The notes below the pieces were generated by a model, which was not told the DNA's origin, did no database searches, and saw only the letters and a program-made list of their open reading frames with translations. The translations under genes were made by a program, and so were the position numbers. DNA of 64,000 nucleotides, from the NCBI RefSeq assembly GCF_018283675.1, contig NZ_JAGVRK010000001.1:1612001-1676000 (forward strand), in the 5' to 3' direction. Position 1 is the first letter of the stretch; each line of letters begins with the position of its first letter. Below are positions 36,321 through 39,826 of the stretch, one piece after another. This stretch comes from Metabacillus flavus (GTDB lineage: Bacteria; Bacillota; Bacilli; Bacillales; Bacillaceae).

Positions 36321-36352
36321 AAAAACGAACTGACCAGTCAGTTCGTTTTTTT
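36321..36352. terminator. bidirectional terminator between ade and TetR gene
   Basis: AAAAACGAACTGAC/GTCAGTTCGTTTTT, 14-bp perfect stem; overlaps the end of the convergent TetR gene. Confidence 0.9.
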
Positions 36353-37225
36353 GTATAACCTGTACCATTTATCCAGTTCATTTTTAAATGATAGATAGGC
36401 TTTGTTTTCCGTCTGGTGGATGTACATACAAAGACTTTCAACAATGATTTCATTTATCGGGCTTTTATTTAATTCATCTTTTAAGGAGATAAGAGCAGAC
36501 TTAAGCTTTTCCTCACCTTCCTTAATCTCATCAATCCATAACGAGAGCAAGTGGCCGATGCGCTGTTTTGGCTTGTTTTCCGCAATTTTGAGCTCTGACA
36601 AGATGATTTTTGCTTCTTCCTCCTGTATAAGCGGATGATCCCCAGTTTCCATAAAGCTCTTAATTAAGTAATCCATTCTTTTCATAAGATAGGGCCCCAT
36701 CTCTGGAATTGGAAATGCTTGCTTTCCTTTAATCATCAGGGCTAAAAATTCCTTTACCATACCCTCAAGCAAGACTACCAGATCATATAAAAATGGCTTA
36801 GCCTTTGCACCGTAAACATCCTCAAGCCTTTCAGAGTACCAGGCAAACAGACGAAGTCTGACTGTTTTTAAGTAATGGAACAGCTCGCTGTTTTCTTTCA
36901 TAATTTGTTCTCTGATTTGCATATGAAGAAACTCATTGTGGGTGGAATAGATGAAAAAAATACTTGATAGCTGCTTTTCAAAGCTTTCTCTAAGATTCCC
37001 GTCAGCTTCATGCAGCTCATCCATTTTCTCAAAGAGGGTTTCAAAATGATGCTCAAAAATTGAAAACAGAAGATCTTCCTTTGAGCCGAAATAATTGTAA
37101 ATCGAGCCTTTTGCAACTCCGGCGGCATCTGCAATTTCCTGAATAGAGGTTTGATGATAACCTTTTTGAGAAAAGCATTTAATTGCGCTGTTTATGATAA
37201 CTTTTTCACGATCCTTCAATGACAT
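36338..37225 (-). CDS. TetR-family transcriptional repressor
   Basis: A 295-residue regulator. The N-terminal HTH is typical (KVIINSAIKCFSQKGYHQTSIQEIADAAGVAKGSIYNYFGSKEDLLF). The C-terminal ligand domain is about 90 residues longer than the usual ~200-residue TetR, as in B. subtilis YerO-like efflux regulators. It lies divergently to an alarmone synthetase-efflux operon and a palindrome at that operon's promoter is its likely operator. Its start overlaps the end of a 56-codon ORF by 20 bases, so translation is probably coupled. Confidence 0.85.
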   Translation of the reverse strand: MSLKDREKVIINSAIKCFSQKGYHQTSIQEIADAAGVAKGSIYNYFGSKEDLLFSIFEHHFETLFEKMDELHEADGNLRESFEKQLSSIFFIYSTHNEFLHMQIREQIMKENSELFHYLKTVRLRLFAWYSERLEDVYGAKAKPFLYDLVVLLEGMVKEFLALMIKGKQAFPIPEMGPYLMKRMDYLIKSFMETGDHPLIQEEEAKIILSELKIAENKPKQRIGHLLSLWIDEIKEGEEKLKSALISLKDELNKSPINEIIVESLCMYIHQTENKAYLSFKNELDKWYRLYKKTN

Positions 37226-37376
37226 TTACACCTTTCTCAAGTGGACTCAGGCTTTTAAATGGAGAGGGAGCAGGCAGCTTTCTGCTGTTTTTGGAGATAT
37301 GAACAAGCTCTGCCTTCACTCCATATGACTGTAGTGTTTTTACTAGTCTTTTTAATCGATCAATTGACTGCTCCAT
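37206..37376 (-). CDS. 56-residue small protein upstream of tetR gene
   Basis: Begins at an ATG 6 bases after AAAGGAG and runs into the tetR start (20-base overlap). The N-terminal half could be an amphipathic helix (MEQSIDRLKRLVKTLQSYGV); the rest is basic and Ser/Pro-rich. It may be a real small protein or a translated leader that couples tetR translation. Not recognised. Confidence 0.55.
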   Translation of the reverse strand: MEQSIDRLKRLVKTLQSYGVKAELVHISKNSRKLPAPSPFKSLSPLEKGVNVIEGS

Positions 37377-37524
37377 AACCGGCTCCTTTTTTGTTTTAAC
37401 AATGCTTGCTTCGATGATGATTCCCGCTTCTTGCACTAGCCTGCCGCATATAATTGCAGGGTGTCAAGATCAGAATTTACCTTTAGCATACTTAATATTT
37501 TAAATGAATTTTATCTATTTGTAA

Positions 37525-37568
37525 TTGACGGAAACTCATACGTCATATAAAATATGACTGGATGGTCA
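37525..37568 (+). promoter_or_regulatory. promoter with TetR-type operator for relP-efflux operon
   Basis: TTGACG (37525-37530), exact 17-base spacer, TAAAAT (37548-37553). Overlapping the expected start of transcription is the inverted repeat TGACTGGATGGTCA (37555-37568, TGAC/GTCA arms), placed where a repressor would block the polymerase. The divergent tetR gene makes it the obvious operator. Confidence 0.68.
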
Positions 37569-37625
37569 GTATAGTTGAATTATAGACTTTCTGTCCAAAA
37601 CATTCAATAGCCGGGAGAGAGATTA

Positions 37626-38267
37626 ATGAATTCAGAAATGGCTCAGTGGCGGGATTTTCTCATGCCATATAAATTCGCTCTTGATGAATGCAAATTAAAA
37701 ATAAACATGATTAAAGAAGAGGCTTTCCTCTCAGGCAGCTATCATCCCATTGAGCATGTAAAAGCAAGAATCAAACAGCCGGATAGCATTTTAGGAAAGC
37801 TGAAAAGAAAAGGGATTGACCCGTCCCTAAAGAATGCAGCGGACCATTTGCAGGATGTTGCAGGAATCCGGATTGTCTGTTCCTTCGTTAAAGACATATA
37901 CTTAGTGGCGGAACAAATTGAAGAAAGAACAGATCTTGCGATTCTTGAAAAAAAAGACTATATCCAAACTCCAAAGCCAAATGGATACCAAAGCATGCAC
38001 TTCATTGCAGAGGTGCCTGTTACATTGAGATCGGGTGTGAAAAAAGTAAAGGTTGAAATCCAGCTCAGGACCTTAGCAATGGATTTTTGGGCGAGTCTGG
38101 AGCATAAAATTTTTTATAAATTCGAAAGGGAGATTCCTGATTATTTAAAGCAGGATTTGTATGAAGCTGCCATGGCGGTTCAAGTTTTGGACCAAAAGAT
38201 GGAGCATATTAGAGATGAAATTGGAACAATTGAAGATTCGCGGGAACAAATTCTTATGCCATTATAG
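37626..38267 (+). CDS. relP: small alarmone synthetase ((p)ppGpp synthetase)
   Basis: A 213-residue single-domain GTP pyrophosphokinase. Motifs: PIEHVKARIKQPDSILGKLKRKG, HLQDVAGIRIVCSF, TPKPNGYQSMHFI and EIQLRTLAMDFWASLEHK. The sequence follows B. subtilis YwaC/SasA (RelP) more closely than YjbM (RelQ). It transfers pyrophosphate from ATP to GDP/GTP; there is no hydrolase or TGS/ACT domain, so control must be transcriptional. GGGAGAGAG precedes the ATG. The efflux pump gene begins 12 bases after the stop, so the two share the TetR-type promoter. Confidence 0.9.
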   Translation: MNSEMAQWRDFLMPYKFALDECKLKINMIKEEAFLSGSYHPIEHVKARIKQPDSILGKLKRKGIDPSLKNAADHLQDVAGIRIVCSFVKDIYLVAEQIEERTDLAILEKKDYIQTPKPNGYQSMHFIAEVPVTLRSGVKKVKVEIQLRTLAMDFWASLEHKIFYKFEREIPDYLKQDLYEAAMAVQVLDQKMEHIRDEIGTIEDSREQILMPL

Positions 38268-38278
38268 GAGGAACATAA

Positions 38279-39826
38279 ATGGAGCAAGACATTAATAGAA
38301 AATTAGTTTTAACGGGGTTAATTATCGGGATGTTTTTCAGTGCGCTGGAACAAACGATTGTCGGGACGGCGATGCCTACAATTATTGGGGAACTAAATGG
38401 ATTTTCGATCTTTGCATGGGTTACCACAGCTTACTTAATTACATCCACAACAGTTATTCCGATAACAGGAAAACTCTCGGACATATTTGGAAGAAGAAAG
38501 CTTTATTTAATCGGTACAATTCTTTTTATCATTGCTTCGGCCCTCTGTGCGACGGCGGAAACAATGGAACAGCTGATTATATACCGGGGGCTGCAGGGTA
38601 TTGGCGGCGGAATGATCATGCCGCTTTCTCAAACCATTATCGGCGATATTTTCACAGCAGAACAAAGAGCAAAGTGGCAGGGAGTATTTGGTGCAATATT
38701 CGGGTTAAGCTCAGTTATTGGACCTTTCATTGGAGGACTGCTTGTTGATACGATCAGCTGGCATTGGATTTTCCTGATTAACGTACCGTTCGGATTGCTG
38801 TCGGCTATCCTCATTTTTGCAGGAATGAAGCACGAAGTAATAAGGGGAAAAGGCAAGGCGAAAATAGACTTTCTGGGAATTGCGACTCTCATTCCAGCTC
38901 TTGTCTGTTTATTGCTTGAGCTTTCTCTCGGCGGGGATAAGTTTGAATGGCTATCTGCACCAAGCATTGCGTTTATTGCCGGAGCCATTCTCTTTACAGG
39001 ATTATTCATTGCGGCAGAGAAGAGGGCAGAAGAGCCGATTCTGGAACTTTCACTCTTTAAAAACCGTGTTTTCTTTACTACGAACATGATCGGATTTTTA
39101 CTTGGATTGGGCATGTTTGGTGCGATCATGTTTGTTCCGATGTTCATGCAGGGAATCATGGGGGTTTCTCCTACAGTAGCAGGCTCTACGATGACGCCGA
39201 TGATGATTGCATTGATCGCAGCAAGCGTTATCGGAGGAAGGCTATTGCTAAAATGGACATTCAGGACCGTATTAACTGCTGGTATGGCCATTACAACCAT
39301 TGGATTTTTCCTGATGAGTACAATGGGAACAGGTACCCCTCAGTGGCTTGCCTATACATTTATGGTGGTGCTTGGACTGGGGATGGGACTCGTGATGCCG
39401 ACCATTATGATAGCTGTACAAAATGAGTTTCCAAAGCATCAGCTTGGTACGGTAACATCTGCTTCTACATTCTTCCGTTCAATTGGCGGAACCATTGGTG
39501 TAACGGTACTAAATGCCGTGATGAATCATTCTCTGCAGCAGTCTATTGCGGAGCAGAAATTTTCAATCGGCGCGGGACCTGCACCTGATGCGAATGCGTT
39601 ATTCGGAATTTTGATTAACCCTGAATTATTGCAGATTCCAGAGGCTCAAAAAAATGCGCTTATCGGAGCGATTAAAGATATGTGGGTTTCTTCGTTTTCC
39701 ATAACGTTTTTAACAGGATTGGTCTTCGTCCTGGCCGGCATCCTGTTTGCACTCTCAGCAGGGAAGGGAAGAGTCAAAAGAGATTCAGAAAAACTCACCG
39801 AAGACATTCCTTCTGCTGCAAACTAA
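38279..39826 (+). CDS. DHA2-family (14-TMS) multidrug efflux MFS transporter
   Basis: A 515-residue protein with 14 predicted transmembrane helices. EmrB/QacA motifs: [17 protein letters not shown] (motif D1), [16 protein letters not shown] (motif A), [14 protein letters not shown] (motif B) and [16 protein letters not shown] (antiporter motif C). It exports lipophilic toxic compounds in exchange for protons. TAGGAGG precedes the ATG, just after relP. A divergent TetR regulator is the usual partner for such pumps. Confidence 0.9.

Follow-up and report, generated by a model that had tools for sequence, protein, structure and literature searches.

A predicted TetR-controlled operon joining an alarmone synthetase and a DHA2 efflux pump in Metabacillus flavus

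In the genome of Metabacillus flavus, a gene for a small alarmone synthetase (relP) is followed by a gene for a DHA2 multidrug-efflux-type pump of the MFS class, and a tetR gene is divergent from both. The stretch analysed, called the window here, comprises 64,000 nucleotides (positions 1612001-1676000 of the 4.03-Mb genome), and feature positions are given in window coordinates. The gene order is ade, tetR (reverse strand), an open reading frame (ORF) of 56 amino acids (reverse strand), relP (forward strand), the pump gene (forward strand) and rnjA. It is well supported by sequence comparison that relP and the pump gene form one putative transcription unit behind one TetR operator. The locus is probably a TetR-controlled efflux module with a captured alarmone synthetase that is derepressed by one ligand; this reading is supported by the predicted operon structure, the promoter, the operator with its link to a TetR family, and purifying selection.

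The relP-pump promoter is of the sigma-A type (TTGACG-17-TAAAAT, 37525-37553, forward strand) and was identified by a consensus scan and by conservation. The scan returned 8 promoter-like sites against 7.7 +/- 2.6 in shuffled sequences, so a sigma-A match alone is not evidence and the comparison between genomes decides. Four genomes that carry the block (G000, G001, G005 and G002) were aligned. From the -35 box to the operator (GTAATTGACG to GGTCAGT), 44 of 50 columns are invariant in these genomes, compared with 10 of 20 gap-free columns in the upstream flank and 36 of 49 downstream. The sigma-A promoter with 17-bp spacing that an earlier note on this DNA had proposed is thus upheld by conservation rather than by the match. 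The same note had placed an operator-like palindrome at the start-site region, and a candidate operator, TGACTGGATGGTCA (TGAC-N6-GTCA, 37555-37568), does lie directly 3' of the -10 box. It is identical in three of the carriers and has one changed base in G002. Together with the TetR_N domain of the regulator, a palindrome that is common to related TetR loci points to a TetR protein with a palindromic operator at its target promoter.

The product of relP (37626-38267, forward strand; 213 amino acids) is a small synthetase of the RelP/YwaC type: RelA_SpoT (PF04607, E 1.1e-32) is its sole Pfam domain, and hydrolase and regulatory domains are absent. Its best solved relative is YwaC (E 8.9e-62), to which it is nearer (211.9 bits) than to YjbM (153 bits), and the YjbM model of NCBIfam gives 208 bits, below the cut-off of 320. 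A tree places it with the RelP rows, apart from three RelQ rows at 100/100. The stretches DVAGIRI, NGYQSMH and EIQLRT match their counterparts in an alignment with YwaC, and by analogy the protein would make (pp)pGpp/pGpp. Two other PF04607 genes are found in the genome, a 787-amino-acid frame of the Rel type and a second small synthetase. The pump (38279-39826, forward strand; 515 amino acids) passes the TIGR00711 model of the DHA2 subfamily (EmrB/QacA type) with 287.4 bits against a cut-off of 230.2. These assignments bear out the pair of proteins named in the earlier note, and its long divergent TetR is likewise recovered: tetR (36338-37225, reverse strand) encodes 295 amino acids with TetR_N (PF00440, 1e-19) and no other Pfam domain.

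The gap between relP and the pump gene is 11 nucleotides (12 had been proposed). The AGGAGG ribosome-binding site of the pump gene (38266-38271, forward strand), which was read directly, contains the relP stop codon. A terminator scan returned no terminator-like site at the relP-pump junction and a strong one after the pump gene, a hairpin of 14 pairs (39829-39860) between the converging pump and rnjA genes. Between G000 and G001, the pairs of nonsynonymous and synonymous divergence (dN/dS) are 0.036/0.44 for relP, 0.019/0.67 for the pump gene, 0.075/0.72 for tetR and 0.083/0.30 for the small ORF; against G002, the method returned no dS for relP and tetR. With dN far below dS, purifying selection on all four ORFs is supported.

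The link between the operator and this type of TetR comes from loci without relP. Relatives of the pump were found in 56 of 299 genomes of the order at E 1e-130, and identity to it over the matched part is 66-73% in the best 27 loci besides the window. A long TetR adjoins the pump at seven of 29 other loci, in tandem at four (L289, L290, L292 and L294) and divergently at three (L308, L312 and L313). These seven loci belong to families other than that of the window; they share with it the TetR type and a pump that is 69-73% identical over the matched part, and differ from it in having no relP. At all 29 loci, relP is absent from about 1.5 kb on each side of the pump gene, where the contig allows. 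The stretches scanned for the operator were those between divergent genes, or upstream of tetR where the genes are in tandem, and for L290 also before the pump gene. Elements of the TGAC-N6-GTCA type were present at all seven loci, exact at L289, L290, L292, L294 and L308 and ending in GTCG at L312 and L313, which are two genomes of one genus. Read by eye, the -10 box of the pump promoter at the three divergent loci is immediately followed by such an element, as is the case in the window, and L308 also shares the small ORF.

A pattern, TGACYRNNYRGTCA, was fixed from the long-TetR/DHA2 loci before the locus of an RND pump with a long TetR in the M. flavus genome was scanned. The whole genome has four sites (two in the reversed control): one is at the relP promoter, the stretch that separates the RND pump gene from its long-TetR gene has two, and the fourth is elsewhere. 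Three of the four therefore lie at the two loci whose TetR has a full-length match to the window TetR, which is of the same family as the regulator beside the RND pump. The fourth site (3522169) was taken as chance, being inside an ORF of 141 amino acids about 220 nucleotides past its start; by eye, none of the ORFs read nearby was recognisable as a TetR, a pump or RelP, and no family search was run there. The AACTGACCAGTCAGTT palindrome in the ade/tetR terminator (about 36331-36346) was considered as a second operator and set aside, its half-sites being spaced by 2 and not 6. Altogether, these comparisons support a TGAC-N6-GTCA operator that goes with the long-TetR family of the window. Names that we take to be those of Bacillus subtilis relatives are YerO, SwrC and YcnC.

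The same element stands upstream of relP (within 350 nucleotides, or 60 nucleotides inside the gene) at nine of 71 loci, and at one of 20 relQ loci, against a background of 27 sites in the 792,280 bases that these loci span. The nine comprise three of the window's genus, three where a long TetR is linked (L209, L213 and L237), and L144, L217 and L234. In the last three (genomes G040, G339 and G194, respectively), the long-TetR-type operator is close before relP although no TetR gene adjoins it, and control in trans is possible.

We propose that the divergent 295-amino-acid TetR would bind TGACTGGATGGTCA over the start site and so shut the single relP-pump promoter. A hydrophobic or toxic ligand, probably a substrate of the pump, would release TetR, and the pump and RelP would then be made together. 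The resulting pulse of (pp)pGpp/pGpp may lower GTP and slow growth until the compound has been exported. Control of relP by the repressor of the pump is suggested by the comparison of operators. Binding itself, the class of ligand, the activity of RelP, the extent to which growth is affected and any role for the 56-amino-acid protein are predictions of the scheme, as are a toxic compound as the ligand and the slowing of growth by RelP that would follow. Export of drugs by the pump is likewise a prediction, and the effect of RelP on GTP and growth in this host would follow from its relatives in B. subtilis and Staphylococcus aureus. According to the abstract and passages of PMC6853874, higher expression of sasA (ywaC) in B. 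subtilis goes with better survival of antibiotic treatment, and in S. aureus relP and relQ belong to the VraRS regulon, according to passages of a 2023 review on (p)ppGpp and antibiotic tolerance in Firmicutes (PMC10117726). A term search of the main text of that review did not return the word efflux.

A different signal is possible, although we hold it to be clearly less probable: the signal that TetR senses may be not a toxin but a surfactant or a metabolite made inside the cell, and RelP may tune envelope or lipid stress rather than drug tolerance. The AcrB-type RND pump has beside it a regulator of the long-TetR family to which the window TetR belongs. The best NCBIfam match of the window TetR is FadR, a sub-threshold one (67.5 bits against a cut-off of 200), but this match is limited to residues 8-108. 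The matches to solved structures that were displayed begin N-terminally, and none passes residue 151 of 295 (best 1e-13); no ligand was deduced from them. The partner gene also speaks for drugs, since it encodes a DHA2 pump, the named relatives of which are drug pumps. The synthetase itself provides a further argument for envelope stress. B. subtilis ywaC/sasA resembles the window gene in being a RelP-type small alarmone synthetase, the nearest solved relative, with a link to antibiotic tolerance, and differs in being controlled by sigma-M and WalR, as passages of PMC6853874 describe; its need for sigma-M agrees, for that sigma factor, with the envelope-stress control that the earlier note had ascribed to it. 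At two loci of the window's family (L140 and L148, genus g6) where relP is nearly YwaC, no TetR, MFS or RND gene was found within three genes.

The earlier note had missed the ORF of 56 amino acids (37206-37376, reverse strand), which overlaps the start of tetR by 20 nucleotides in all four block genomes. A candidate promoter for this ORF and tetR (ATTACA-17-TAAAAT, 37497-37525, reverse strand) lies back to back with the relP promoter; it is a consensus match, and its position was read by eye in the four-genome alignment. A divergent promoter at 37597-37568 (TGGACA-18-TATACT, reverse strand) is less likely, because its -10 box is lost in G002. In other families, relatives of the small ORF adjoin genes for a TetR, a DHA2 pump or RelP. 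They form a family of about 36-58 amino acids with the pattern LxxxLxxxG[VI], which includes members at L143, L201, L202, L221, L260, L267, L273 and L308 and at many of L318-L367. A profile built on the sequences of the window's genus detected a member ahead of relP at L201 (E 7e-5). Six members (L143, L202, L260, L267, L273 and L308) were added to the seed by position and by likeness judged by eye, their scores with the first profile being weak (0.11 to 9) or, for L308, not listed. The resulting ten-row profile found L221, which is not in the seed and also stands at the start of relP, at 4.6e-6. At E 0.05, matches occur in 195 of 397 genomes of the order, and many are weak. Among the best 30 loci, TetR is adjacent in 26 and TetR or relP in 28; without the eight seed loci, the counts are 19 and 20 of 22, several of which are near relatives of the seeds. 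Of 20 further loci, five have TetR (one repeats L338), seven DUF5392 only and eight neither, so the family is broader than this circuit. No Pfam family matched the small protein at the cut-off, and YqaH, which appeared at E 0.014 and 0.017 in two of 11 members scanned, was not used. On sequence grounds, this is a new family that accompanies many TetR/relP/DHA2 operons, including that of the window, and also unrelated genes. Our guess is that the protein is a small co-regulator or a leader.

It is unlikely, in our estimation, that control is partly translational, with the ORF acting as a leader or small co-regulator of tetR and the level of TetR also setting the expression of relP and the pump. 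The overlap with tetR in all four genomes, the conservation of the ORF as a protein, and relatives directly before a long tetR and directly before relP elsewhere would suit such a role. However, the small gene is elsewhere found between tetR and the pump gene, or near DUF5392 or unrelated genes, and this ill suits a fixed leader. The DUF5392 protein is an unstudied partner of RelP: the domain was confirmed in all seven proteins tested, and a literature search, which did not cover subscription papers and preprints, found no paper on it. A DUF5392 gene (about 145 amino acids) is directly downstream of relP at ten loci (L143, L145, L183, L185, L204, L209, L213, L220, L221 and L330) and upstream of it at L226.

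The association of relP with TetR genes extends well beyond the window. At E 1e-52, relP-type matches were found in 159 of 397 genomes of the order. From among the matches listed, 49 loci of 48 genera (L179-L227) were surveyed, taking one locus per listed genus not already sampled (one genome gave two), without looking at the neighbours beforehand; three of the genomes (G037, G052 and G058) had previously been seen without TetR. Neighbours were counted as ORFs of at least 100 amino acids. TetR is within two genes of relP at ten loci (L183, L195, L201, L208, L209, L212, L213, L221, L226 and L227), and at eight of the 49 it is also on the relP strand, compared with none of 20 relQ controls. The binomial chance of the TetR count is 6e-8 to 3e-5 for an assumed density of 0.5-1% of genes, which was taken loosely from 18-21 TetR matches per genome. 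An MFS or RND gene is within three genes of relP at nine loci (L184, L185, L198, L201, L206, L208, L213, L221 and L226). The order in L201 is MFS, small ORF, relP and TetR. Outside the 49 loci, an RND gene is transcribed away from relP-TetR at L237, and at L144 and L234 relP converges on an RND pump and MarR. Two arrangements are recorded in their own right: at L198 (G182), relP is 95 nucleotides behind an RND pump in two overlapping frames (a possible frameshift), on the same strand and with TetR divergent; and at L213 (G285), a relP-DUF5392-TetR operon is followed by a DHA2 gene without its N-terminal half.

A set of 68 named relP loci, of which 64 could be laid out, gave another picture: no TetR is within three genes of relP except at L034, a Bacillus sp. 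SJS copy of the block, and the sole other MFS neighbour (L057) is on the opposite strand. Two Anaerosolibacter loci (L036 and L042) have relP convergent with ABC-ABC-MarR, which recalls Streptococcus mutans. The regulators that adjoin relP are of several types, namely long TetR, TetR_C_19, TetR_C_8 (L149) and proteins of about 220 amino acids with TetR_N only (L139 and L208). In a tree of long TetRs, which has several long branches, at least three events, each a gain or a loss, are required to explain the linkage to relP; three independent gains are not claimed, since three changes may equal one gain and two losses. The comparisons with other bacteria as a whole suggest that TetR-type switches have been wired to alarmone synthetase genes more than once.

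The TetR_C_19 regulators provide a second operator type. The domain is present in all 12 regulators tested, and the genes occur in tetR-small-DHA2 operons (L338, L339, L342 and L345) and in relP operons (L143, L330, L335 and others), some of the order tetR-small-relP-DUF5392 and some small-relP-tetR. As in the window, TetR and a small protein are combined with a DHA2 pump or RelP; L201 is an exception, with another kind of MFS gene, below the TIGR00900 cut-off, upstream of relP. These operons differ from the window in the type of TetR and in the operator, TGACA-N3-TGTCA, and where a DHA2 pump and relP are combined, it is in trans (G332 and G215). Every one of 18 upstream regions, from ten genera, contains the operator; it was found afterwards, by counting palindromes in these regions, several of which come from close relatives (one genus contributes five and another three). 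TetR is adjacent at 16 of them, the others being L336 and L337. A stricter pattern, TGACAYNRTGTCA, gave 30 sites in ten genomes (five in the reversed control), 21 of them before relP or tetR-small-DHA2 operons, and no site in the genome of the window. In G332 and G215, two and three of these sites, respectively, precede relP and are the only exact ones in the genome, and a tetR-small-DHA2 locus elsewhere has variant sites. The relP and pump loci of these genomes (L336 and L348 in G332, L337 and L349 in G215) thus lie apart, each with a small-protein gene and the same operator type. Four pumps of this kind, including those of G332 and G215, pass TIGR00711. From their operators, relP and the pump appear to share a regulon in both genomes. 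Separately, L366 (G201) is a small-DUF5392-TetR_C_19-MFS array with a TGACA-N3-TGTCA operator and without relP.

The least probable alternative is that relP is a bystander, which landed behind an efflux promoter and is co-transcribed with little physiological link to the compound while the pump is the real output: it would explain why the pair is confined to one genus among the loci read and why relP is not found near the pump at the 29 other DHA2 loci, but it sits badly with the low dN of relP in the three genomes compared, with the several TetR types that relP adjoins elsewhere, and with G332 and G215, where relP and the pump are apart yet have the same operator type.

Several observations weigh against a TetR-controlled module with a captured synthetase. 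Taken by itself, the sigma-A match is no better than chance. The exact operator is uncertain, since the -10 box is also overlapped by a second inverted repeat, GTCATAT-AAA-ATATGAC, which is weaker in G002. The operator precedes relP at L217, L144 and L234 but no long TetR is adjacent, and at L226 a long TetR is beside relP without TGAC-N6-GTCA before it. In G242 and G456, the pump operon is preceded by exact TetR_C_19 sites but relP is not. The enrichment of TetR near relP is not significant when the first and second neighbours are compared with the third and fourth (P 0.13), or relP with relQ loci (P 0.053). The block is missing from two of six genomes of the genus. Finally, the regulation is a prediction from the sequence.

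The block is present in the other four genomes of the genus; in the two without it (G003 and G004), ade, tetR, relP and the pump gene are all absent between ktrC and rnjA. In 12 genomes of other genera of the family, the next recognised gene beside rnjA is ade in seven and ktrC in three, and neither is within 1.5 kb in two. The interruption of ade-rnjA synteny asserted in the earlier note is thus borne out by seven of 12 genomes, with the reservation that G003 and G004 lack ade too. Acquisition, its further claim, is plausible from this gene order, but the block may instead have been lost together with ade in those two genomes. TGAC-N6-GTCA elements are present at long-TetR/DHA2 loci free of relP, so the TetR-DHA2 efflux module is apparently the older part and relP a later addition; the history that fits best is that this module took in relP and came to sit between ade and rnjA. 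A ywaC orthologue moved next to the pump was rejected as the source, as the window relP is outside the part of the tree with the YwaC-like L140 and L148. It falls in a deep group with L237, L144/L234, L200, L218, L219 and L222, the support for which is weak (85/73); a split at 96/90 separates the remaining RelP rows, among them L140 and L148. Immediately 5' of ade is a purine riboswitch (RF00167, 82 bits, 34435-34536, forward strand), which overlaps the opening codons of the longest ade ORF, so the true start of ade is probably further downstream.

The closest precedent is rcrRPQ/relPRS of S. mutans, where, in the published passages, a drug-type repressor (the MarR-like RcrR), exporters (the ABC proteins RcrPQ) and relP occur together. 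There, relP is in its own relPRS operon, two genes away from rcrRPQ, and the link studied is that with competence and stress tolerance. The window has a TetR in place of MarR and an MFS pump of the DHA2 type in place of paired ABC exporters. By its sequence, the arrangement is different from that known theme, with a TetR, a DHA2 pump, and relP placed inside the pump operon. The relP-DHA2-TetR arrangement was not described in the titles and abstract openings searched, a search that did not cover subscription papers and preprints. The earlier note had regarded a common or already described arrangement as evidence against its proposal: the related MarR arrangement is in print, the exact relP-DHA2 pair was found only in the window's genus among the loci read, and relP-TetR recurs in Bacillales.

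It is an even bet, in our judgement, that these loci represent a recurring drug-response circuit of Bacillales, composed of a TetR, often a small protein, and an interchangeable output, which may be a pump of the DHA2 or RND type, RelP (with DUF5392), or pump and RelP together. Its operators would be of two or more types, with TGAC-N6-GTCA serving long TetRs and TGACA-N3-TGTCA serving TetR_C_19. If so, drugs would directly induce alarmone synthesis as a regular accompaniment of efflux. The window, which combines the two outputs in a single operon, would be the most compact form of the circuit, and relP genes behind TetR-type operators in several genera would serve as replicate systems. Drug sensing would then be tied directly to growth-slowing alarmones that cause tolerance, through one repressor and one promoter for both the pump and the synthetase.

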